Shown: positions 3,178-52,838 of the stretch, piece after piece | How the letters are laid out: each line of letters begins with the position of its first letter | Numbering within the stretch: position 1 is the first letter of the stretch | Source of the DNA: a virus | Length of the DNA: 63,028 nt | Strand: one strand, 5' to 3' | IMG/VR virus record: IMGVR_UViG_3300035188_000849 | Coordinates: 1 to 63,028 of that record | Notes under the pieces: model-generated | Seen by the model: the letters and a program-made list of their open reading frames with translations, nothing else | What the model was told of the DNA's origin: nothing | Databases searched by the model: none | Translations under genes and position numbers: made by a program

Positions 3178-3260
3178 GGGATTGTGGCGGAACTGGCAGA
3201 CGCAGCAGACTCAAAATCTGCCGCCCTTAAAGCGTGTGGGTTCGATTCCCACCTGTCCCA
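3178..3260 (+). tRNA. tRNA-Leu(CAA)
   Basis: 83-nt cloverleaf: acceptor GGGATTG/CTGTCCC with one T-T mismatch, anticodon stem GCAGA/TCTGC with loop CTCAAAA (anticodon CAA), a long class II variable arm, and T arm GTGGG-TTCGATT-CCCAC. Discriminator A; CCA is not encoded. It reads UUG. Confidence 0.92.
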
Positions 3261-38735: not shown

Positions 38736-39956
38736 ATGTCATCTTGCACAAATAATTCAATAATCTCCGCAACATTTGTTCCCTCAACAGACGCCACTAA
38801 TGGCAGAAGAATTTCCTTTCAACAAAAAACAGATACTAACTGGGACCCAACCATTCAAGCCGGTAATGTAATTAGATTCGATGTTGACGAAGTAATTTTT
38901 ACAAAGTCAATAGCAAATCCATATATTAATGAAGAACCAGATTTGTCTGTTGCAGAAGTTGTTGGTATAGTAGAATCTATATCACAAATAAACGGAGTTA
39001 CTTATGCCACTGTAGTAACACATGGTTTGATAAACTATCCAGGTCTAACTTTTAATTCTACTGATGGTGGTGCTGGTGGCACTGATATATTCTTTCTCAG
39101 TCCGACTACTTTAGGTGGAATAACATCAGGAGTAGAAGAAAGCCGTGGTTATGTTATAAAACCTGTTCTTCAGGTTTGTCCTGTTTCTGAAACAGATTAT
39201 AACAGCATAGTTGTAAACTACCTTGGTTATGAATCTTCTGAATCAGAAGCAGCCACTCTTAGACTTGGTGAATCAACAGTAGGAGATATAAAGGTTGTAG
39301 ATGCAAATGCAGAATTGCCAAGAGGATGGATAGAGGGAAGTCTTCCACAATATCTTCCTGTAAGGGAATACTCAGAGGCATATCAAATTTATTCAACAAC
39401 ATATGGTTCACACGAAACATTAACAGTAAATGGAACTTCTAGTTTTGTTTCGTCATTATTAAACGCATCAATAAGACCAATAGATCCAACAACTGGTAGA
39501 GGGGTTCAAAATTTCTTTAAAGTAATTTCTGTTGACACCTTAACTAATAAAATAGTAACAGAACACACAACAAATAAACATGAATTTTGGAAACCACAAT
39601 ATACCAAATATGAAATATTAAACTATGTGTCTCCTCAACCAGCGTTACCAAATGATAGGCCAACTATAGTCCGTATAAATGTTACAAACGGAGAAATAAC
39701 ACATTTTAAAACTCCAAAAATTGAAACTAATTTAGTTGTAAATTCAGGAAACGAAGATCAATTGGTATCATTTAATACAAAGACACTATTGAGAGTTAAA
39801 AGAGATACTTCTGCCGCTTATTTACCAGAACAAATATTGTTTACTAATGTGGATGTTGGTGGAGTAATAAAAACCAAAAATATTTCAGATTTGGATCAAA
39901 AACTAGTAGAAATTGAGACAAGAATAGTTGCATTAGAACAAGCGTTAGGATTATAA
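38736..39956 (+). CDS. Structural protein, 406 aa, with C-terminal trimerising coil
   Basis: GAGG upstream at 38726 supports the start. The body is beta-rich and Thr/Asn/Val-rich with no enzyme motif ('NVIRFDVDEVIFTKSIANPY', 'AEVVGIVESISQINGVTYAT'). The C-terminus 'DLDQKLVEIETRIVALEQAL' is an ideal short coiled coil, suggesting an oligomeric fibre or connector. It precedes the large Cys-rich adhesins and may be their base. Confidence 0.65.
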   Translation: MSSCTNNSIISATFVPSTDATNGRRISFQQKTDTNWDPTIQAGNVIRFDVDEVIFTKSIANPYINEEPDLSVAEVVGIVESISQINGVTYATVVTHGLINYPGLTFNSTDGGAGGTDIFFLSPTTLGGITSGVEESRGYVIKPVLQVCPVSETDYNSIVVNYLGYESSESEAATLRLGESTVGDIKVVDANAELPRGWIEGSLPQYLPVREYSEAYQIYSTTYGSHETLTVNGTSSFVSSLLNASIRPIDPTTGRGVQNFFKVISVDTLTNKIVTEHTTNKHEFWKPQYTKYEILNYVSPQPALPNDRPTIVRINVTNGEITHFKTPKIETNLVVNSGNEDQLVSFNTKTLLRVKRDTSAAYLPEQILFTNVDVGGVIKTKNISDLDQKLVEIETRIVALEQALGL

Positions 39957-39957
39957 A

Positions 39958-42804
39958 ATGGCTTCAATACGGGGTAGTAGCCAATTTAGACAGTTAAAGG
40001 GAGCAACCGTATTTGGTATAACCGGACCTGTAGGGCCCACAGGTGCAACCGGAGCAAATAATCCAGGACCAACTGGTGCTACTTCTGAAAAATATGCCAT
40101 AGACATAGATATCACTGGTTCTTATATTTTAAGAACTCAGTTCTATGATGGTGATCGTATAGCGGCATCTGGAAAATTATACGGCATAACAGGAAATACA
40201 GTAGTAATATTAGATGGTAAAACCGGACCTACTGGTAGTGGATATGTTTTTGCAGGATCATCTGCTGCAAATAGAGAAGTAACACTAAGAGGAATAACTG
40301 GGAGCACTGGATTTAGAGCATTTGTTGGGGTTACTTCAGACAATGAAACAATAACAATTTTTGTTGAAAAATATGATGGTGAATATACTCTTTTCTCTGG
40401 AACATTTACAGACATAATTGCAACAGATAATTCTTTAAATTTAATTGGAATTACTTCTGCAAAATATGGAGAGTTTACTCAAACTCTATTGATAAGAAAA
40501 GCAAATGTTTTTGAAAAAGTAAAATCTCAAGCAGGAAATACAGGATCTCTTACATATACTGCTCAACAATTTGGTTCGTTTCCTATTGAAACTTTAAACA
40601 TTAATTTAGATCCTGTTAATTCTTATAACAACAATAAAGATAGAAATTCTAGATCAAAGGTATTTTCTATTGACTTAAATTCATTTGGCTACCAATTAAT
40701 ACAAATAAACATAACAGACCCACCAGTAGATGAACCAATTGGTTTTAGTCTTCATTTACAAAATGGTCCAGGATATAATCCTTCAAGTGTATCAACAGAA
40801 ACAGTTTTATTTAAATCTGTTAGTGGTAAGCCAATTCAATTTCCATTAAATAAACAGCCATGTGTTTATCTACAGAATAAAAGTTATGTAATTCATTTTG
40901 TTTCAATAAAAGATACATGGTATGCATATGTGTTTGGAAGCGATTCTGGAGATGAATCTTTTTTCTGTGATAGTGAAGAATATTTTGCTTATTCATCAAA
41001 TCAATCTAATGTACTAAATGATTATTATGGAATAACTGGTGCATGTTGTACTCCAACTGGTTGTACTTTAACAACACTTTATGGTTGCACTGGATACTTT
41101 GTAGGAGCCGGTAGTACCTGTGGAACAATAGGAACTAATAGTATCTGTTCTGAGCAACTGGGTTCATGTTGTGTTAAAAACATAGTTGATGGAAAAGTAA
41201 ATCAATATTGTATTGATGATATTAGTGCAATTGATTGTCTTTCTTTGAGAGATAATTCAACAGACACAACTTTTGGTGGTATTGGAAAAACATGTTTAGA
41301 TTTAAATTGTTCAAATTCGTTTGATACTATTGGTGGCTGTTGTGATGGGTTTGGCAATTGTTCTGAGTTAGAAGAAACTCAATGTATTTTAAGTGGCGGA
41401 AACTACTTGGGTGATGGAGTTTTATGTTATTCTGAAAATAAACAACCAACTTGTTCAACTGGTATTGGTGCTTGTTGCAAATCTGGAATATGCACAGAAG
41501 AAACAATAACTAGTTGCTTACAGTCTGGGGGCAGATACTATGGCTCTGGTATAAGTTGTGGAGATGTCATGTGTTCTGCTGCATCTCTTTCGTGTGGTGA
41601 ATCTATAGGAGTTCCCATTAAGCCAGGAGATGTTATTGGTGGTGGTGTTGTTGTTGGCATTTACAACCCAAAACAATCTAAATTACTGGGAGCAGCACAT
41701 GCGTTTTCTTCTACCGGAATTACATCAACCTTCATGTTTGGCGGAGAAACCTTAGCAAAGTATTATCAAAGTGAAATTGATTATGTTGGTTATGGTTTAA
41801 CCGGAGAACAATGCGATGTTACAACAGGACAGCAATTAGATTCATATTATTTGATTGTTTCTTTGAATCATGCCGCAGTTAATTCTAACGGAGATTTGAT
41901 TAATCCAACTGAAGAAAGTTCTTCAAAGGAACAATTTGTTTGGTACGGATCTGGCATTGGTTGGGGTCCAATTTTAAATCTTCAAACTTATAGACCTGAT
42001 GATTTTACATTTTTGAACCAAACTTATGATTCTCTTTATATGAGATATGGAGAGGGTTATTATGGAATAACCGGGGAATCTTTAGACATAATAATAGAAA
42101 CTACATTCCAAACCTGTTATGAGACTAGAAAAAACGGAACTGATCCAGTTGCTAGACTATTTACTAGAAATATAAAAACATCAAATGGTATATGGAACAG
42201 AAACTGGGGGTTGTACAATACTATTCGCATGATTTCCGCTGATAACGCACATTACTTAAAATTAAAGAAATCTGGAATTTACACAGAAACTGATTTTGAT
42301 TGTGGGCAGAATATAACTTCTATTCAAGTGTGTAGTTTGTTTGATTCTACTGATACAACAAACTCGGTTGGTTTGACAGCAAATCCATCTGGATTGTCTG
42401 ATTGGTATTTACCAAGTCATGATGAACTTGCTTTTATTGCCGCTAATGTTGTTACAGATTCTACAAATTCTTATAATGGTTTTGATCTGAATTCAGCAAT
42501 TCTTCAACAAAACGGAACTCCAATTTATGGCTGGTATTGGTCTTCTACTGGATCTTTTGATATAACTAATAAAGAAGAGGGAGTTTATATTAATGGAAAA
42601 CCAAATCATGGATCTGTTGCGTGGGCAATTTATTTTGATGAAAATGGATCTTCCTCTAATTTTAAGGTAAAAAAAGAAGACAGACAAAAAGAATTAAAGG
42701 TTAGACCAATACGAGCAATTCGATGTGATGGAGTTATTCCAAATACAAATAAACCAGAATATAAATTATGGAAATTACCAAAATTATTAAGAGATAATAT
42801 CTAA
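39958..42804 (+). CDS. Large adhesin: collagen-like start, Cys modules, Lcl-like C-terminus
   Basis: The 948-aa protein starts with a short collagen-like run ('GPVGPTGATGANNPGPTGAT', residues ~23-42). After a beta domain come four cysteine modules (nt ~41038-41580) of the form GACC-x(n)-GxC-x(n)-C-x(n)-G-x-G-xxC, e.g. 'GACCKSGICTEETI' and 'GGRYYGSGISC'. The C-terminal ~300 residues end in a DUF1566/Lcl-like domain ('LSDWYLPSHDELAFIA', 'YWSSTGSF', 'VRPIRAIRC'). Legionella Lcl has the same collagen-plus-Lcl-C plan and is an adhesin. It is probably a receptor-binding tail fibre. First of four related genes. Confidence 0.75.
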   Translation: MASIRGSSQFRQLKGATVFGITGPVGPTGATGANNPGPTGATSEKYAIDIDITGSYILRTQFYDGDRIAASGKLYGITGNTVVILDGKTGPTGSGYVFAGSSAANREVTLRGITGSTGFRAFVGVTSDNETITIFVEKYDGEYTLFSGTFTDIIATDNSLNLIGITSAKYGEFTQTLLIRKANVFEKVKSQAGNTGSLTYTAQQFGSFPIETLNINLDPVNSYNNNKDRNSRSKVFSIDLNSFGYQLIQINITDPPVDEPIGFSLHLQNGPGYNPSSVSTETVLFKSVSGKPIQFPLNKQPCVYLQNKSYVIHFVSIKDTWYAYVFGSDSGDESFFCDSEEYFAYSSNQSNVLNDYYGITGACCTPTGCTLTTLYGCTGYFVGAGSTCGTIGTNSICSEQLGSCCVKNIVDGKVNQYCIDDISAIDCLSLRDNSTDTTFGGIGKTCLDLNCSNSFDTIGGCCDGFGNCSELEETQCILSGGNYLGDGVLCYSENKQPTCSTGIGACCKSGICTEETITSCLQSGGRYYGSGISCGDVMCSAASLSCGESIGVPIKPGDVIGGGVVVGIYNPKQSKLLGAAHAFSSTGITSTFMFGGETLAKYYQSEIDYVGYGLTGEQCDVTTGQQLDSYYLIVSLNHAAVNSNGDLINPTEESSSKEQFVWYGSGIGWGPILNLQTYRPDDFTFLNQTYDSLYMRYGEGYYGITGESLDIIIETTFQTCYETRKNGTDPVARLFTRNIKTSNGIWNRNWGLYNTIRMISADNAHYLKLKKSGIYTETDFDCGQNITSIQVCSLFDSTDTTNSVGLTANPSGLSDWYLPSHDELAFIAANVVTDSTNSYNGFDLNSAILQQNGTPIYGWYWSSTGSFDITNKEEGVYINGKPNHGSVAWAIYFDENGSSSNFKVKKEDRQKELKVRPIRAIRCDGVIPNTNKPEYKLWKLPKLLRDNI
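41038..41580 (+). repeat. Four cysteine-rich modules
   Basis: Tandem modules each open with G-A/S/G-C-C and carry about five or six Cys at conserved spacing: GACCTPTGC, GSCCVKN, GGCCDGFGNC, GACCKSGIC. Sequence between cysteines has diverged strongly, so the copies are old. Confidence 0.8.
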
Positions 42805-45743
42805 TGCCATCAATCGGTTCATCTTCAATTTTAAGAGGTCTGGTAATAGGAAATTCAACCTATATTACTGGACCAACTGGCCCAACAGGGCCCACTGGTG
42901 CAACCGGACTGTCTATAACCGGACCAACAGGACCAGATGGTATAAAATTTGAATCAATAGAATTGGTTGGAAATACACTACACATAAATTATAGCGATGA
43001 TAATGTTTTTTATATTGGTGTTACTGGACCATCTGGTAGTTTAAAAAGATTAGATAATCCAAATTTTATTGTATCTTTTACTGGTGCTTCTGAATTTGTA
43101 AATCCATTTGCTGGAATATCTTTAAATGATCCATATCTCTTTTATTTTAAAACACTCAAAGTAGTAGGAGAGGCAACTGCTGGTATTAGTTTAGATTCAA
43201 TTTATATTGCTAGTCCAATTTTTCCAGATTTGGTTCCACCAGCATATCCAGTAGGACCAACTGGTTCTTTGTTATATGTAAATGCAACCAATGCCTCACT
43301 AATAGATTTTACAAAAGATACTCATACAAAATATTTTAGATCAATAATTTCTAGACAGCCCGGAAGCGAATTGGGAATTACTCTTGATACTTTCTCTTTT
43401 AAAGAAAGCCAAGATTATATAACCCAATTTAAAAATAATCAAAATTTTAATTTTAACTGGTACAATACAACAAAAACCAATATAGATTCTTATCTTAATT
43501 CAGTTGATGTTACTTATTCAATTTTGCCATGTGGAATAACTGGAACATGTCAAAGAACAGATCAATCTATTTTTATATTTGCAAGAGATGAAGATAGAAA
43601 TGTTTATCCCAAAATGTCGTTTAGAGCAGAGGGTATAACACTATATCCAACTTCCTCTGGATTGACTGGCTACACCGGACCTCTGACTATTAATGTCGTA
43701 GGAAAAGGAATAACTTATACTTCTCAAACATATTCTTCATCTAGGATAGGATCTTGTTGTTATTGTAGTGTAGATGCAGAGTCACAAGACCCTAGTTTGG
43801 TTCAGAGATCTTGTATAGACTATGCAACACAAGATTTTTGCAATTCAATAAATGGAAATTTTAGTTTTAACTCGTGTACATCGAGATATCTGACTGGAGA
43901 TTGTTATTCTGGTGGTGCGTGCTGTGTTAATGGAACATGCCTAGAAACAAATAAAGAATTTTGTGAAAAAGTTTATGGAACATTTTATTCTAATATTAGA
44001 TGTTCCGAATTAGATGGATGTCCTAATACTTGTTCCTTAGAGGCTTCTTGTTGTGTAGAAGGAAACTGTTATTCACTTCCAAGTGGAGAATCTTCTGAAC
44101 AGATTTGCCGACAACTCAATGGAAAGTATTCAGAAGAATCATGCGAGGACAGAAATTGCTGTTTAGATGGATTTTTAGGAGCATGTTGTTTTGGTTCTAC
44201 AGACTGTAAGGATGATTACACACCAAAACAATGTGCAGAAGAGAACGGGTTTTATCAAGGAGCAGGAAGTTTGTGTTCTGCCTCAACCTGTTGCAAAGAT
44301 ACTTTACAACAAAGTCAATCTTTAAATTTTCAAACACAAGAAAGTAGAGATATTAACTTTGACATAAAAGTTGGTGATTACTTTGAGGGTGGAATTGTAG
44401 CAGGATTTGTTGGTTATCCACCCCCAAGCCAATTTGTCGAAGATTTATATTTTGCAAAGGGCGAAGTAATATCTGAAATAGAAAACTATACAAATACTTC
44501 TGTCTCTCGTTATGTTGCCGTTAATGGTGTCTATAATGGAAGTTTAAAATGCAATTGTTCTAATTTTTCACCATCACGGTATATCACCATAGAAGATTTA
44601 GGAAAATCAAATGGAAAAGCAGTTGCATCTGCCATTAAATCTTTATCCGGTGTTAATGATCAATTGAACTTAACATTCTACAACCGTTTAACTGATGCTT
44701 GTTTGTTGGATGAAGGAAAAGTATGTAATTTTAAATCTGTAGAAAGTAAAAAATACGGATTTAATCCGGTACTTGCTTATAAAAAATTATCTCAACAAAT
44801 TCACGGGGAAAGCATACCAAGTGCTTGGGTTTTAATTGTTGCACCGGAAGATTTTGGCACAGAAAATTTATCTTTTGGAATGAGCATGTCAGTAAACGGA
44901 TATGCGGTTCCATCTGGATTTGAAACATTTAAAGATTCTTTGTGGCAAGATATGATGATTGCACCATATGGAACCAGTGTATTTGATGGACTAATTAATA
45001 CCAGATTGTTTGATTACACTACAATTGAAAGAAATACTTGGTTCATTCCATCAAATTATACTTTATCTGGAAGTCTACAAACAATAGATCCTCTAGCATA
45101 TTACAGATTCAAACACCCTAAACTTAACTACTGGTCAGCAGATATTAATCAACAACTATTAACCACAAACTCAGAGTATTTTAAAGAAAAATACAGAGAT
45201 ATGTGGAATTCTGTAAATACAGAAACTACGGCTTTATATCAAATTAGTAATAAAAATAAAAACGGTTATAATGGTTACTCTGATTGGTATATTCCAAGTG
45301 CTCTGGAATTAAACATTATATACTATAATTTAAACAAAATAAACAATGGAATTGTATATAACTCAGAAAGTACATGGAGAACTATTTCAAATACTGCCAA
45401 ATATTGGACATCAACAACTGGTGGTAAGTTAACAAATGTTAAAAACTATGTCTCTGGAAACTCCGGAGTAAAAACATACGAACAATATGATAACAATCTA
45501 GAGGGTATAATAACAACCGGAATTCCAGAAGTTGATTCTTGGAGAAGATATAAACTTGCACAGGCGCATAGGGCATATTCTCAAAACTTTTTGTCTGGAA
45601 AAATGGAATCTATTTTAAAAACCACAAGAGGAGCAAAATTAAGGGCTTGCAGAATGGTTCCTATATATTTTAAACCTGTCAATTTAGAAAATCAATTTGA
45701 ATATAGTTTTAAAACATTGAATAGTTGCTCATCCTGTAGGTAA
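42804..45743 (+). CDS. Large adhesin paralogue 2: collagen-like, Cys modules, Lcl-like
   Basis: It starts in TAATG overlap with paralogue 1. The 979-aa protein has two collagen-like runs in residues ~21-48 ('GPTGPTGPTGATGLSITGPT'), a beta domain, four cysteine modules (nt ~43747-44295; 'GACCVNGTCLETNKEFC', 'GACCFGSTDCKDDYTPKQC') and a C-terminal Lcl/DUF1566-like part. That part has 'GDYFEGGIVAGF' at its start, 'NGYSDWYIPSALELNIIYYN', 'YWTSTTGGK' and 'LRACRMVP'. It is likely a trimeric fibre whose collagen part sets the shaft and whose C-terminus binds the receptor. Confidence 0.75.
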   Translation: MPSIGSSSILRGLVIGNSTYITGPTGPTGPTGATGLSITGPTGPDGIKFESIELVGNTLHINYSDDNVFYIGVTGPSGSLKRLDNPNFIVSFTGASEFVNPFAGISLNDPYLFYFKTLKVVGEATAGISLDSIYIASPIFPDLVPPAYPVGPTGSLLYVNATNASLIDFTKDTHTKYFRSIISRQPGSELGITLDTFSFKESQDYITQFKNNQNFNFNWYNTTKTNIDSYLNSVDVTYSILPCGITGTCQRTDQSIFIFARDEDRNVYPKMSFRAEGITLYPTSSGLTGYTGPLTINVVGKGITYTSQTYSSSRIGSCCYCSVDAESQDPSLVQRSCIDYATQDFCNSINGNFSFNSCTSRYLTGDCYSGGACCVNGTCLETNKEFCEKVYGTFYSNIRCSELDGCPNTCSLEASCCVEGNCYSLPSGESSEQICRQLNGKYSEESCEDRNCCLDGFLGACCFGSTDCKDDYTPKQCAEENGFYQGAGSLCSASTCCKDTLQQSQSLNFQTQESRDINFDIKVGDYFEGGIVAGFVGYPPPSQFVEDLYFAKGEVISEIENYTNTSVSRYVAVNGVYNGSLKCNCSNFSPSRYITIEDLGKSNGKAVASAIKSLSGVNDQLNLTFYNRLTDACLLDEGKVCNFKSVESKKYGFNPVLAYKKLSQQIHGESIPSAWVLIVAPEDFGTENLSFGMSMSVNGYAVPSGFETFKDSLWQDMMIAPYGTSVFDGLINTRLFDYTTIERNTWFIPSNYTLSGSLQTIDPLAYYRFKHPKLNYWSADINQQLLTTNSEYFKEKYRDMWNSVNTETTALYQISNKNKNGYNGYSDWYIPSALELNIIYYNLNKINNGIVYNSESTWRTISNTAKYWTSTTGGKLTNVKNYVSGNSGVKTYEQYDNNLEGIITTGIPEVDSWRRYKLAQAHRAYSQNFLSGKMESILKTTRGAKLRACRMVPIYFKPVNLENQFEYSFKTLNSCSSCR
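43747..44295 (+). repeat. Four cysteine-rich modules
   Basis: Copies start GSCCYCSVD, GACCVNGTC, ASCCVEGNC and GACCFGSTDC, the last followed by a closing TCC. Same spacing plan as in the neighbouring paralogues. Confidence 0.8.
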
Positions 45744-45746
45744 AAT

Positions 45747-48700
45747 ATGCAAGACGATATCGGTTACAGTTCAATTTTTCCTACCAGCGGCGCCGGATTT
45801 GCTGGTTCAAAAGGGCCAACAGGGCCAACTGGTTCTCCTCAACCAATTCCAGGCTCAACTGGAGCAACTGGTTCTGATTCTTCTTATATTGTTTCCATCG
45901 AAGTTAATCAAGATGGTCAAATAGAAGCCTTATCATCTGATGATATCATATCTGTTACTGGTACTCTAAAGGGGCCAACCGGAATATATGCAGGTCTTAC
46001 TGCTTTATCTGTAGGAAATGGTATCCCTTTCATTAAAGGTGTCTGTGGTGGAATAACTTTTGATTTTTATAATATAAGAACTTCCGGAAGTTTGGGTATA
46101 ACTTATAGCGAAGACGGAAGTTTAAAAATAACTATATCACAAACAAACAGTGAATCTGGTGGAATATCAGCATCAACTGAACCAAATAGAATAGTTTATA
46201 TACAAAGAAACACACACATAATGTCAACTGACCTGATTCCACAGGTTTCCACCAATTCAAATAGAATAGGTAGTTTAAATTATAGTTATGTAAATTTTGG
46301 AGGAGAAACCGCAGGAAGAAATGTAGTTTCTGATATTAGAGAAACAATTCTTTCAGCAGGACCTATTAGAATTGGTGAAAAAATAGTAACTTTGGATAAC
46401 TTTTATGATCATGGTGGTGCCGATGGTATAACTTTAGATGTTTCTAGAGCAACTGTCTTTGAATTAACAACCCCAATTGGAATAAAAGCATTTAAACATA
46501 ATCCAATACCAGAGGGACAGATAATGTCTGTTACTATGGTTGTTCACGGTGAAGATGTTTGGAATTTTCCAAATGACGTTGTTTTTGACCAAAGTAGTTC
46601 TCCAGTTTTTTATCCCGGTACTAATATATTACATTTATGGAAATCTTCAGATAGTTCAATATGGAGAGCCAATTTTTCTGCTAGAGGATTTGGCGTTTCA
46701 GAAATAACTGATCCTGGCTCTAAAGGTTCTTGTTGTTATTACGATGCTGATGGAACTAGAAGATGTGTTGAATATGCAACACAGACATATTGTAATGAAA
46801 AAAATGGAACATTTGCTGCATTTACTTCTTGTACAAATAATCCCTGTGTTACTAGTGACGATAATGGTGAGTTTAATGGTATTTGCTGTTCTGAAGGAAG
46901 ATGCATACCAAATATAGACATTAACCTGTGTCAAGCAATAAATGGCTATTTTATTGAAGGTATAACTTGTGGTCAATTTGGTTTATATCCTGACGATGAT
47001 GCTTCCAATCTTTCAACCGAAGAAAATATATCAGGACTTTGTTACAATAAATGCAAAGAACCCTCTATTTGCTGCAAAGATGGATTATGTTTAGGAAATT
47101 TAACACAGGAACACTGCGAACAAGTTTTAGGTGGAAAAATAGTAGCAGCGAGTAATTGCGTAACTGCTTCTTGTTGTGATCATGTAAACGCACCCGGTGC
47201 TTGCTGCAAAGCAAATGAAGATAATACTTATGAGTGCTCCCAAGTAAATACTCCGTTTGAATGTTTATCTTCTGGTGGAATTTACATGGGAAGAAACAGT
47301 TCATGTGAAACAATTAATTGTTCTTGCGACATCAACGAAACTACAACTTGCTATAGATGTGATCAAGGAACTAATGGTTGCAACTGTGTGCCAGAATTAA
47401 TAAGTTCCGGAACTTGTAATAGTTTTGGTTATTATGATACACCAACAGAATGCTCAAATAATTGTATACAAAAAACCTGTTATAAATGCAATGGTACAGT
47501 GTGTGAACAAACAACCAGTTGTAGCACTTGCCCTGATGGGTATACAGAGGGATCTTGTATACAAGATATAACATGTCAAACAAAAACATGCTATAAGGAG
47601 TGTGAAAATTGTCAATGTGACAGTCAAATAGTTTCTGCCGATGAACAATGTCCAGATGAATATGAAAATAGTTCATGCGATTGTGATACTTCAATATGTG
47701 ATAGACAAATTGCTTGTTTTTGGTGTTTTCCTCAGACAAATTCAAATATTGCTAACTTGTCACCACTAACTTCTGGTGGATGGGCAACTCTCGCAGCAAG
47801 ACATATGCAAGCACCATACAGAGCAGTTGCATTTTTAAATAGCGAAGGAATAACAAGATTAAATAACCATACAAGTCAATCAGAACAACTAAGTATTACA
47901 TTACCATCACTAGATGGCTCAACTACCAGAATTGTAAATGTATTAACTGAACAATATACAGAAGATGGAACTACATATGAGATTCCTTATTTTGTTGAAA
48001 CTCTAACTTCTAATACAAATATAAATGTTGCCAACCTACCAACAGCACCAGCAACTATTCATTCTAATCCACTTAGCGTAACTGGTTCATACAGATGTTA
48101 TTATATTGGTTCTTATCAACATTCTACAGCAAATCCAATAGAAAACAGAACTAGATGTTTAAATGCATTTGGTTATCAAAACGTAAATCAACAAAAATGT
48201 AAACTGTGTGATAAGATGGAAGAAATTAATTACGAACTATTACCAACCCCAGACTTTCCAGAAGGTACTTACAATATAAGTTCTGTTGAACCTTATAGTG
48301 TAATAATTAATGATTACTCTGCTTATGCACCATTTCCACCTTTATGGGGGAGAATGACACAGGCTTGGGAAACACAATTTTGTGGTTTGGGTTTATATTT
48401 TAGACAAACTTTGAATTTAAGATTGATGAGTGATCAAAGAATATTAGAAATGTGTCATTCTGCAAGAACCGGACAATTAAAAGGTTTTATGCATAAATTA
48501 ATGCAAAAATTTAAATCTGGTTATCAAGGTAAAAATGAAATATTGAATGACATGGTAGCAGGTATGAATACTGCTCTGGGAAGACCAGAATATGTAGGTC
48601 CTCATGTAAATACCATATTTTCTGCTTTCCCCGCGAGCCATTTTATACAGTACGATCCATATTTATTATCCACCATTGTTCCTGAAACTTATGGGTCTCC

Positions 48701-49682
48701 TTTGCAAATTGCGTATCATAAATCAACAAACACAAATAATCTACCGCTTCATGTTAGTTGTGCTAGAGATGGAACTGCGGAATGGACTAACTGGAATAAC
48801 GATAATATAATTGATCCAGAAGATCCCGGTACAGTTTTTGAATCTACTAATTGGTGGCAAAGATTAAGAGGTTGGTATTTGCCGTGGTATAATGAAAGAA
48901 TTGGTGCATATGGAGAATCATTAGCAGAGATTGATAATTATGATAATTGGAGTGATGAAACTAAATTAAGAATTTTATCATATTATTATCCACTACAAGA
49001 CGGTTCTCCCATTTTAGATGAAAGTTCTGAGGGAACTTTAGATCAATTAACTGGAGAATTATTTTTCTATAAACCCGAAGATCAGGAATTTGGTCCAATA
49101 CAAGGTGGAGCAAGTTTAATTGCAATTCCACCACCAATTGGAACACCACCAGAAGCCTATGGAACAACAGCAACAAAAAATGTTCCTATTAATGGTGTAT
49201 CAAAAGGTTTACCCAGAGGAATTTTTGGAAGAAACCTAAGATATAATCTAGACAAATTTAGAACAGCAACCGTGTTTTACCATGAGGAAAACGGTGTTTT
49301 AGTACAAACTATGCCATTTGTTCCTCTTGGAGACAAACATGTTTCTGTTCCAGTTCTTTATATTAATGGATGGTTTGATTCTTCTGCGGAATGTACTACT
49401 TCGTGGGGTCCTCAGTGTATAGGTCTAGGAGGTCCTTGTAGTAATTCTCCGCCTTGCACTGCAACTCCGGGATGTTGGGGTTGTGCCGGAACTGGTGGTG
49501 GAAATGGAAGTAATTGGTTTGCTAATGTAGGACTAATTGGAACTTCTTATGATTTTACTTCGGAAACAGCACCACTAGTTCAAAATTCAACAACCAATAG
49601 TAAAACAAAAAATGTTAAAATTGCAGATGGAATCTGTGTAAATATGTTATGTCCAGAATGTGATTCATACGAAAGTTGCTAA
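45747..49682 (+). CDS. Largest adhesin paralogue: collagen-like, seven Cys modules, unique C-terminus
   Basis: 1311 aa. The N-terminus has collagen-like 'GSKGPTGPTGSPQPIPGSTG', then a beta domain. About seven cysteine-rich modules follow (nt ~46723-47727); the last three switch style to 'CYRCDQGTNGCNC', 'CYKCNGTVCEQTTSCSTC' and 'CYKECENCQC'. From residue ~665 on there is no Lcl domain but a ~640-aa region unlike its siblings: 'SGGWATLAARHMQAPYRAVA', 'WGRMTQAWETQFCGLGLYFR' and 'GYQGKNEILNDMVAGMNTAL'. This could be an enzymatic or receptor-binding domain; I recognise no catalytic motif. A Cys/Gly-rich knob closes the protein ('GCWGCAGTGGGNG'). Confidence 0.7.
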   Translation: MQDDIGYSSIFPTSGAGFAGSKGPTGPTGSPQPIPGSTGATGSDSSYIVSIEVNQDGQIEALSSDDIISVTGTLKGPTGIYAGLTALSVGNGIPFIKGVCGGITFDFYNIRTSGSLGITYSEDGSLKITISQTNSESGGISASTEPNRIVYIQRNTHIMSTDLIPQVSTNSNRIGSLNYSYVNFGGETAGRNVVSDIRETILSAGPIRIGEKIVTLDNFYDHGGADGITLDVSRATVFELTTPIGIKAFKHNPIPEGQIMSVTMVVHGEDVWNFPNDVVFDQSSSPVFYPGTNILHLWKSSDSSIWRANFSARGFGVSEITDPGSKGSCCYYDADGTRRCVEYATQTYCNEKNGTFAAFTSCTNNPCVTSDDNGEFNGICCSEGRCIPNIDINLCQAINGYFIEGITCGQFGLYPDDDASNLSTEENISGLCYNKCKEPSICCKDGLCLGNLTQEHCEQVLGGKIVAASNCVTASCCDHVNAPGACCKANEDNTYECSQVNTPFECLSSGGIYMGRNSSCETINCSCDINETTTCYRCDQGTNGCNCVPELISSGTCNSFGYYDTPTECSNNCIQKTCYKCNGTVCEQTTSCSTCPDGYTEGSCIQDITCQTKTCYKECENCQCDSQIVSADEQCPDEYENSSCDCDTSICDRQIACFWCFPQTNSNIANLSPLTSGGWATLAARHMQAPYRAVAFLNSEGITRLNNHTSQSEQLSITLPSLDGSTTRIVNVLTEQYTEDGTTYEIPYFVETLTSNTNINVANLPTAPATIHSNPLSVTGSYRCYYIGSYQHSTANPIENRTRCLNAFGYQNVNQQKCKLCDKMEEINYELLPTPDFPEGTYNISSVEPYSVIINDYSAYAPFPPLWGRMTQAWETQFCGLGLYFRQTLNLRLMSDQRILEMCHSARTGQLKGFMHKLMQKFKSGYQGKNEILNDMVAGMNTALGRPEYVGPHVNTIFSAFPASHFIQYDPYLLSTIVPETYGSPLQIAYHKSTNTNNLPLHVSCARDGTAEWTNWNNDNIIDPEDPGTVFESTNWWQRLRGWYLPWYNERIGAYGESLAEIDNYDNWSDETKLRILSYYYPLQDGSPILDESSEGTLDQLTGELFFYKPEDQEFGPIQGGASLIAIPPPIGTPPEAYGTTATKNVPINGVSKGLPRGIFGRNLRYNLDKFRTATVFYHEENGVLVQTMPFVPLGDKHVSVPVLYINGWFDSSAECTTSWGPQCIGLGGPCSNSPPCTATPGCWGCAGTGGGNGSNWFANVGLIGTSYDFTSETAPLVQNSTTNSKTKNVKIADGICVNMLCPECDSYESC
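46723..47727 (+). repeat. About seven cysteine-rich modules
   Basis: Copies 1-4 keep the GxCC opening (GSCCYYD, GICCSEGRC, SICCKDGLC, GACCKANED). Copies 5-7 open TCYRC, TCYKC and TCYKEC and look like a second module type expanded locally. Confidence 0.75.
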
Positions 49683-52247
49683 ATGTCAATCCAATTTAGA
49701 ACAAAATCTCGAACATCAATAAATTATTCTAGTTTCATTGGAAACAGCGGATTGACTGGCTGTTGCTATGTTTACGAAAATAATGAAGTTGTTCAGAATC
49801 AAAATTATACATTATCACAATGCAATCAACAAGACGGACTATTTAAACCCGGAACATGTGATCCAACTTTTAACTTATTACCATCTTCGATGGGTTGCTG
49901 CTGTGCATGTTCATTAAAAGAAGAAACCGGAAATCCACTATCCTCACTTACACTCTGTGAATGTGAAAGTATAAGTGGCAAATGGACACTGGGTTCATGT
50001 GATAATTTAACTGAAAATGAATATTGTATATCTGGAACTCAAGAACAATCAAACACAATAGATTTTAGAAACAAAAAAGCATGTTGTCATCCAAGCATAT
50101 CAGAGGATGGAACTGTTTTTTCTGATTGCACTGACGTTTGTAGCGAAAAGGAGTGTGCAGAAAAAGCAATAGTTCCTTATACTGCCACATATTACAACAA
50201 CGGAAGAGTGTGTGATGTTGAAGTTGGTTCTGCCGCATCTGTGAGAGATGAATGTAAATTATCTGAATCTAGCAAAGTAATATTAAATTCTTGTGAAAAT
50301 GGAACAAATTTGTTTTGTTGGAACAAGGGTGGTCAGAATAGATGTGATTTTAAATACGAATTTAGTGATATTTTATTACAATCTTTATATCCGGGAAGTT
50401 ATTTTGAAAATGTAAATCAATACGTTGTTCAATTGAAGAATTTTTCATCTCCACAAAATTTAAGTATTGCCATATTGGGTTCACAATATGGATCATCTTT
50501 TCCAGACATAGAAGATTTTGCAAAATCTCTTCTAATTAGAATAAAAAAAATATGTCCGGGAAGTTTGTCGTTCGATAATTCAATATCCGAGCCAGATAAG
50601 TGGATTGATGGATATTTTGCCTTAATGGACAATAACAACATTCCACGTTATTATTCTTCTCCGAATTATATTTCTAATAATTTTGAAAATTCTGCCAACT
50701 CTCCAATTCCAACCCAAACACCAATAGCGCCAGTAAAGGATTTAATTGCGACTAGAACATTTAGTGCTTGGATTGATTCATCAAATAATGTCAAAATTTT
50801 TGGAAGATTTTATTCTGGAAGTTTAAATCAATACAAAACATTTAGTATAAGCACAAAACTTAAAAAAATATACCAACACAATTTGGCGCCAGTGGGTTTT
50901 GATACTCATCAATCTATACCAGAATATTCTACAGTAGGATTTGTTGGACAGAAGTTGGATGGAACTTTTGAATATTTTTCTCCATTTATTTCACAAATTC
51001 AACAACTTCAACAGATACAACAAATAATCAGAAGTTTACCACCAAAGGATTATGTTAATGCATCTTTTGGAAACAGTACTTTCTGCGGAATAGAAGCAGA
51101 TGGAACAATGTCTTGTGTTTCTCTAAACAACGAACTATTACAAAAATATCCGATAAACAAAAAGTATAAATTGGTTTCTTGCACCAGTGCTCTTTCCAGT
51201 GAGTTCTCAGGAATAAACAACCCAAACAATGAATATTGTTTTGCCGTAGACGAAGATAATAAATTTGTAAAAATGTCATCCCAACTATTTGAGTTCTACA
51301 GAGAACCTTCTTCATCAAATACTGATGTAATTGGTTTGTCTTGTTACAATAATTATTGTTTGTCTGTAGTTGAGCCTGATGAGAATATTTGTAACAGCCA
51401 ATTACTGGGAAGTTGCTGTACATGTACAGAAGACATAACAAATTGCATTCAAACAATTCAAGGAACTTGTTTAGAACTGGGTGGTGATTTTACAAGCGGC
51501 GGAATATGTTGTAATTTAAATCAAACAGAAAATTGTATTAATTGCTCTAATATTCCAAACTGCAACAATTTTACAATAATATCTTCTACTAGTTCTGAAT
51601 CAGACCTTCCAACCTCAGAATTGACATATTATAAAGATGGATTATATGTTGGCATTTTTGAACCGGGAAGTCCAATAAATCAACAGGGATCTATTGTAAA
51701 CGGAAACCCATATACTGGAAATGCACTTAACTATAAACCTAATGTAGTTGGTTATGGTACTACTTCCAAAAAATGGGCAATCATAGTGTCTCCAAGTGAT
51801 TATGAATTGAATTATTTAAATGAAGATTCGGAGAATCAAGAAATAATACCAGCATCAATGTATGATGGTCTTTGGAATACTTACGGAAACAATAATGAAT
51901 ATTTTGGAATTATGTCCAAAACAATGCAAACTTTACGAGAAAAATCTAGGCTTTCTGGGTGGTATCTACCTTCTAAAAATGAATTAGAGTTTATCAATAA
52001 ACAAATAAATCATGGATTTTTTATACCAGAGATATTTAAATCTTTAAAGAATGAAATTTACTTGACCTCTACACCATATTTTAAAATAAATTCTGATACA
52101 ATATTTGACATAGATAAACAAATATTTGAAGGCAATTCGTTTATGTATGGTCAAAATTTTAGTAAATTAGATTATGGTACTATATACTTAGTACCAAGAA
52201 CTAAAAATGTAAATGTTCGTCTTATAAGACGAATTGAATTGGAGTAA
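49683..52247 (+). CDS. Large adhesin paralogue 4: Cys modules, RCC1-like middle, Lcl-like C-terminus
   Basis: The 854-aa protein lacks the collagen-like run and starts almost at once with cysteine modules (nt ~49761-50213: 'GCCYVYENNE', 'GCCCACSLKEE', 'ACCHPSISEDGTV'). The middle (~residues 340-560) has 'FCGIEADGTMSCVSLNN' and 'EYCFAVDEDNKFVKMSS', reminiscent of RCC1-type beta-propeller blades. One more Cys module follows ('GSCCTCTEDITNC'). The C-terminus is Lcl/DUF1566-like ('SGWYLPSKNELEFINKQ', 'RTKNVNVRLIRRIELE'). Probably another receptor-binding appendage. Confidence 0.7.
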   Translation: MSIQFRTKSRTSINYSSFIGNSGLTGCCYVYENNEVVQNQNYTLSQCNQQDGLFKPGTCDPTFNLLPSSMGCCCACSLKEETGNPLSSLTLCECESISGKWTLGSCDNLTENEYCISGTQEQSNTIDFRNKKACCHPSISEDGTVFSDCTDVCSEKECAEKAIVPYTATYYNNGRVCDVEVGSAASVRDECKLSESSKVILNSCENGTNLFCWNKGGQNRCDFKYEFSDILLQSLYPGSYFENVNQYVVQLKNFSSPQNLSIAILGSQYGSSFPDIEDFAKSLLIRIKKICPGSLSFDNSISEPDKWIDGYFALMDNNNIPRYYSSPNYISNNFENSANSPIPTQTPIAPVKDLIATRTFSAWIDSSNNVKIFGRFYSGSLNQYKTFSISTKLKKIYQHNLAPVGFDTHQSIPEYSTVGFVGQKLDGTFEYFSPFISQIQQLQQIQQIIRSLPPKDYVNASFGNSTFCGIEADGTMSCVSLNNELLQKYPINKKYKLVSCTSALSSEFSGINNPNNEYCFAVDEDNKFVKMSSQLFEFYREPSSSNTDVIGLSCYNNYCLSVVEPDENICNSQLLGSCCTCTEDITNCIQTIQGTCLELGGDFTSGGICCNLNQTENCINCSNIPNCNNFTIISSTSSESDLPTSELTYYKDGLYVGIFEPGSPINQQGSIVNGNPYTGNALNYKPNVVGYGTTSKKWAIIVSPSDYELNYLNEDSENQEIIPASMYDGLWNTYGNNNEYFGIMSKTMQTLREKSRLSGWYLPSKNELEFINKQINHGFFIPEIFKSLKNEIYLTSTPYFKINSDTIFDIDKQIFEGNSFMYGQNFSKLDYGTIYLVPRTKNVNVRLIRRIELE

Positions 52248-52253
52248 TAAATT

Positions 52254-52838
52254 ATGAGTGAAAATTCTTCGTGTTCAAATAAACCAAATCCAATCGAATT
52301 TAGAACTGTAGCAGTCCCAGACAATAAAAGTGTTATCTCCAAAAAGATAGGGATGATTCAAAGTTTTGCCATGTCTTTGACTTCTAGAGGATTAAACGAG
52401 AAAAAAATCAACCGGGCAACTAAGCAACTCAGAGTATTAAGTTGTTTTGGAGATAAGCACCTAAACGGTGTAGTTCCTCCATGCGAACACCTAAAGGAAA
52501 GCAAAACAGAGGGACAATACTTCTGTGGTGGATGTGGTTGCGGAGATAGACAAGGAACTTGGTTGGTAGCCAACGGAAACGACTACAGTAAACTAGATTA
52601 TCCAAAACTTAATTGCCCAATAACTATGCCAGGGTTTACTAATTATACCCCAAGTAAACCAGATGAAGCAGTTGCACCAATAACTAGAAAATATTACATT
52701 GAAAATATTGCTTTTGAGGATCTTAATAAGATGCCTGTCACTTTACCAGATATGCCAGAAGCAATGCGTAAAGTAATGGACGAACGAGAAGCCAAGATGT
52801 TGGAGCAAAATAAACTGAATAGTCAACCACTTCAGTAA
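52254..52838 (+). CDS. Small zinc-binding protein, 194 aa
   Basis: A Cys/His cluster, 'SCFGDKHLNGVVPPCEHL' then 'FCGGCGCGDRQGTW' and 'LNCPITMPGF', has the C..C / CGxCGC / CP layout of small zinc-ribbon proteins found in phages. The C-terminal helix is charged. It sits between the last adhesin and gp13, at the site where T4 has wac (fibritin), but lacks a fibritin coiled coil. Function unknown; possibly an assembly chaperone or a minor collar protein. Confidence 0.55.
   Translation: MSENSSCSNKPNPIEFRTVAVPDNKSVISKKIGMIQSFAMSLTSRGLNEKKINRATKQLRVLSCFGDKHLNGVVPPCEHLKESKTEGQYFCGGCGCGDRQGTWLVANGNDYSKLDYPKLNCPITMPGFTNYTPSKPDEAVAPITRKYYIENIAFEDLNKMPVTLPDMPEAMRKVMDEREAKMLEQNKLNSQPLQ

Follow-up and report, generated by a model that had tools for sequence, protein, structure and literature searches.

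What do four adjacent, cysteine-rich genes contribute to a virus that carries them among its structural genes? The window (the whole 63,028-base virus record analyzed here) derives from an uncultured virus infecting bacteria, a member of an uncultured T4-like phage clade. Four ORFs, designated A, B, C and D, were found at exactly the coordinates (39958-52247) at which the original prediction had placed four adjacent genes; all lie on the + strand and overlap or abut:

39958..42804, + strand: gene A, 948 aa, adhesin-like fibre protein with 32 Cys, four modules and an Lcl-like tip
42804..45743, + strand: gene B, 979 aa, with 37 Cys, four modules and an Lcl-like tip
45747..49682, + strand: gene C, 1311 aa, with 69 Cys
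49683..52247, + strand: gene D, 854 aa, with 40 Cys and an Lcl-like tip, without a collagen run

The answer we consider probable is that A-D, conserved as a set in this T4-like clade, serve as adhesin fibres of the virion, their spacers stiffened by disulfides and their tips of lectin type. Evidence comes from the position of the genes, their divergence, their cysteine modules and their C-terminal domains.

The right half of the window is a T4-like structural cluster, with the following landmarks:

23-35 kb of the window: baseplate cap and wedge genes
52873: head-tail adaptor gp13
53683: head closure gp14
55692: terminase gp17
57405: sheath
59152: portal

A-D are flanked by baseplate wedge genes on one side and by gp13, gp14, gp17, sheath and portal on the other: as for T4-like tail fibres, they sit in the late structural cluster beside baseplate and neck genes. 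The closest named relatives are cyanomyoviruses (terminase 58%, portal 52%), and these also carry large genes in the same slot upstream of gp13, encoding giant fibre or YadA-domain proteins (annotated as a tail fiber protein in Synechococcus phage S-H38, and as a YadA-domain structural protein in P-SSM4 and S-ShM2). However, the cyanophage giant fibres contain just 0-0.6% Cys, lack the modules and show no similarity to A-D. The gene psbA, taken as a test of a cyanobacterial host, is absent from 27 relative records, all of them fragments, and the T4-type late promoter TATAAATA is not enriched. Searches (tblastn) of 50,697 GenBank phage records with A, the A Cys array, a D homologue and a giant C homologue returned no match; a hand-written module consensus likewise returned nothing from the same records. 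In all these searches a low-complexity filter may hide module-only matches.

Viral contigs were scanned with gp13 and with alignments of A, B and D. The order A-B-C-D recurs at 53 loci on 30 contigs, and the set is thus shared by at least 30 related virus fragments. Identity within the close clade is 84-88% for gp13 and 86-91% for gp17, against mostly 37-66% for A-D. In one contig (L004), gp13, gp14 and gp17 are 98-100% identical (gp13 100%, dS 0.02), yet D is 81% identical with a dS of 1.13. The D allele has thus been replaced between near-identical phages. Ratios of dN/dS between alleles are well under 1 (about 0.1-0.25) and so give no direct sign of positive selection. Fast divergence combined with allele replacement is how receptor-binding genes behave. 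The same data bear on a different role, in which A-D decorate the neck, whisker-fashion, or act as scaffold, with tips that aid fibre assembly or bind environmental glycans weakly and non-specifically rather than recognizing a host. T4 fibritin is also encoded just upstream of gp13, D nearly always adjoins gp13 with one small gene between, and the folds matched among viral proteins belong to diverse collagen-repeat and tail proteins. Set against the neighboring genes, however, the fast divergence and the replacement of alleles suit receptor-binding proteins better than scaffolds, and we regard a decorative role as unlikely.

Candidate attachment and stalk regions recognized toward the N-termini are:

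39958..40095, + strand: A, IRGSSxF peptide at the N-terminus, possibly anchoring the protein in the virion, and the collagen-like run GITGPVGPTGATG
42861..42947, + strand: B, collagen-like run GPTGPTGPTGATGLSITGPTG
45795..45878, + strand: C, collagen-like run
40519..40947, + strand: A, beta domain (residues 188-330; 188-334 in the structure comparison) resembling domains of T4 gp10, gp9 and tailspike TSP4

A, B and C, together with most orthologues inspected, start M-x-x-I-G-S-S-x-I followed by a GxTG run. The GPTG collagen-like starts predicted for three of the genes are present, though short: the GxY runs begin at residue 20 (A), 23 (B) and 17 (C) and extend over roughly 4-9 triplets, with a Pfam Collagen match in B only (E 0.29, below cut-off). 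Similarity of the A beta domain (in an AlphaFold2 model) to T4 gp10, gp9 and TSP4 is middling (Z 4.7-5.4). A simple scan detected no signal-like N-terminus in A, B, C or D. Short collagen-like segments comparable to those of A-C occur in phage tail fibres, for example 80alpha FibU (PMC7048315) and E. coli prophage proteins (PMC3368898), for which the passages and abstracts consulted mention neither Cys modules nor an Lcl-type tip.

The cysteine-rich regions are:

41026..41592, + strand: A, four GxCC six-Cys modules (residues 357-545; pLDDT mostly 70-90)
43746..44300, + strand: B, Cys modules (residues 315-499)
46719..47324, + strand: C, four GxCC modules (residues 325-526)
47325..47726, + strand: C, region dense in CxC/CxxC (residues 527-660), its Cys almost unchanged among orthologues
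49755..50357, + strand: D, Cys-rich N-terminal part with degenerate modules (residues 25-225)
51405..51572, + strand: D, canonical GxCC module (residues 575-630)

Cysteine accounts for 3.4% (A), 3.8% (B), 5.3% (C) and 4.7% (D) of residues, against less than 2.5% in nearly all of 36 other window genes checked (exceptions are the genes at 1390, 3.2%; 2603, 2.6%; and 52254, 3.6%). The GxCC module is a regular six-Cys pattern (CC..C..C..C..C); 13 copies were aligned and five Cys columns are invariant. The spaced pattern occurs 4 times in A, 3 times in B and 4 times in C, compared to shuffle means of 0.1-0.5, with the real count reached by none of the shuffles for A and B and by a fraction of 0.0015 for C; the single occurrence in D is not above chance (fraction 0.27). 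A profile HMM built solely from the 13 window modules gives 119 (A), 131 (B), 119 (C) and 28 bits (D) for the proteins on which it was trained, and no more than 4.2 bits for composition-preserving shuffles. The module is thus common to all four proteins, as had been proposed, with D the weakest member: it contains one canonical module plus degenerate Cys groups. In the Cys-rich parts of orthologues the identity of Cys positions is 0.81-1.00 compared to 0.28-0.48 for other residues, showing that the cysteines are under strong constraint. A PDB sequence search with the Cys array gave nothing better than E > 0.05. Weak alignments of the A modules with three-finger toxins (Z about 2.7) were taken as chance.

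Relatives of the module were sought in 84,980 species genomes using the hand-written consensus, a choice of query that may bias the taxonomic result: 20 of the 22 loci recovered are from Planctomycetota, with one each from Gemmatimonadetes and Eisenbacteria. Four of these bacterial proteins reach 184-388 bits with the window-only HMM, compared to no more than 3.7 bits for shuffles, and the planctomycete resemblance noted from the sequence alone is upheld. In five genomes the same HMM finds 88, 53, 20, 11 and 2 copies, the two largest numbers being planctomycete. Neither Pfam nor NCBIfam holds a model for the module: an uncatalogued six-Cys unit is thus common to exported planctomycete proteins and adhesin-like phage proteins. 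A signal-like N-terminus is evident (by simple scan) in 14 of 18 bacterial module proteins, most of the others being cut at the locus edge; the bacterial relatives are therefore mostly exported, which points to an oxidising compartment. A planctomycete protein may consist of little besides the array (30 modules in one case, L091), unlike the phage arrays, which are spacers between fibre domains and lack a signal peptide.

Export of the relatives also bears on the chemistry of the arms. The arms would be metalloproteins if zinc or some other metal organized the folding of the modules in the reducing cytoplasm; phage proteins do fold in the cytoplasm, and C has CxC and CxxC pairs, a part that could bind metal. 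The canonical module, however, is without CxxC pairs and its best relatives are mostly exported, a location that, by analogy, favours disulfides over metal. We consider metalloprotein arms doubtful, with a probability that is low. Lower still is the probability we attach to a more elaborate scenario, in which the hosts are planctomycetes, or similar bacteria whose protein surface is rich in Cys, and the phages took the module from exported host proteins and, besides using it as a spacer, lock covalently onto that surface through thiol-disulfide exchange. Planctomycete cell walls are known to hold other Cys-rich (YTV) proteins (PMC8567305). The modules provide a lead to the hosts of these phages. 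A search of 392 planctomycete genomes for the phage terminase gave one good match (in G218), on an 18.8-kb pelagiphage-like T4 contig (L222, G218:C205; HTVC008M 71%) within a planctomycete assembly. This contig carries no Cys-rich ORFs, is probably mis-binned and was rejected as evidence of host.

The C-terminal domains of A, B and D are:

41593..42726, + strand: A, Lcl-CTD / C-type-lectin-like C-terminal domain (residues 546-923)
44373..45668, + strand: B, Lcl-like C-terminal domain (residues 524-955)
51600..52244, + strand: D, Lcl-like C-terminal domain (residues 640-854)

Matches to Pfam Lcl_C (PF07603, DUF1566) were obtained for A residues 809-919 (E 4.8e-4), B 808-893 (1.5e-5) and D 758-849 (6.8e-3), at 17.1-25.7 bits, below the gathering cut-off of 34.9 bits; C gave no match, and relatives of A and D also match weakly. 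Structure prediction for A (AlphaFold2, 30 sequences) gave a pLDDT of about 70-90 for the modules and of 80-95 for most of the C-terminal domain, which aligns with the Legionella Lcl-CTD (8q4e_A) over 127 of 131 residues (Z 8.6, rmsd 3.5) and with a Bacteroides fimbrial protein at Z 11.1. Further matches, at Z 4-6, are to formylglycine-generating enzyme, phage Mtd (5.3) and C-type lectins (about 5). Profile-profile comparison shows that A, B and D share homologous C-termini (97-99%; hhalign B-D 98.4%, B-A 96.8%), to which that of C is unrelated. Structure prediction, the check suggested for Lcl/DUF1566-like ends in three of the proteins, therefore points to the Lcl-CTD fold directly in the A model and, for B and D, through profile homology to A. 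That A-D are targets of a diversity-generating retroelement (DGR) is most improbable: DUF1566 and C-type-lectin folds are typical DGR targets (as are many DUF1566 proteins; PMC4159848, PMC8143477) and Mtd matches the A model, but no reverse transcriptase (RVT_1) was found in the window or in 17 relatives, whose records are fragments, and the A tip is well conserved rather than hypervariable.

How far, then, do these proteins mirror Lcl, as the original prediction had it? The parallel holds for the parts: as in Lcl (PF07603, PDB 8q4e), a collagen-like GxY run precedes a C-terminal DUF1566-type, C-type-lectin-like domain. It fails for the whole. Lcl is a bacterial protein with a route of secretion, its collagen rod is long and its C-terminal domain contains no disulfides (PMC11162425), whereas the window proteins are products of phage late genes in which a simple scan found no signal peptide, the collagen run is short, and a beta domain and Cys modules intervene, the Cys-module spacer being the dominant element. 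With Lcl_C scores below the cut-off and no signal peptide found, the set has an Lcl-like part list but does not belong to Lcl. We found no description of A-D proteins in the open-access literature, which is weak evidence; as far as our searches reach, joining these parts to planctomycete-type Cys modules is new, and the kind – phage receptor-binding fibres – is known.

Taken as adhesin fibres, A-D might work as follows; virion location, trimerisation, disulfides and receptor binding are all inferred. A, B and C would dock on the baseplate or tail through their shared xxIGSSxI peptide at the N-terminus, and the short GxTG run plus the gp10/tailspike-type beta domain would trimerise the fibres. 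The six-Cys GxCC array would fold as a compact spacer and, once lysis releases it into oxic water, form disulfides that make the arm stiff and resistant to proteases. In A, B and D the Lcl-related tip of C-type-lectin fold would bind host-surface glycans or proteins, a function that in C would fall to a different, fast-changing tip. D – which lies beside gp13 and has no collagen stalk – may attach at another site. Disulfide-rich arms, if real, would be an unusual route to fibre stability for proteins that fold in a reducing cytoplasm.

Gene C ends differently:

47727..49682, + strand: C, fast-diverging C-terminal region, ending GICVxMLCPxCxSYESC, without Lcl similarity

AlphaFold2 modelled C residues 642-1311 with low confidence (pLDDT 45), and no structure matched the model at Z 2 or above. 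Orthologues of C agree over the N-terminal 400-530 residues and diverge thereafter; the largest (L075:1315-7737) is 2141 aa with 228 Cys. Pfam gave no match for this protein, in which a von Willebrand A-like insert (SILISLDNSSSMS...FFSDGDPSD) is recognizable by eye. In D, residues about 458-570 (51054-51392) are RCC1-like by eye (FCGIEADGTMSC), a stretch missing in distant D orthologues.

Several further genes of the window deserve mention. A 194-aa gene (52254-52838) with a CGGCGCG motif and 3.6% Cys separates D from gp13 in nearly all relatives; it is 84-90% identical within the close clade, has no match in GenBank phages and no PHROG, and is a possible assembly partner of the A-D cassette. 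Directly upstream of A is a 406-aa gene (38736-39956), similarly without match in GenBank phages, whose position is kept in relatives. In the left part of the window, a gene at 1390-2439 encodes an IMP dehydrogenase/GMP reductase domain (Pfam E 2e-72), which is unusual for a phage, and eleven tRNA genes lie between positions 3178 and 14733.
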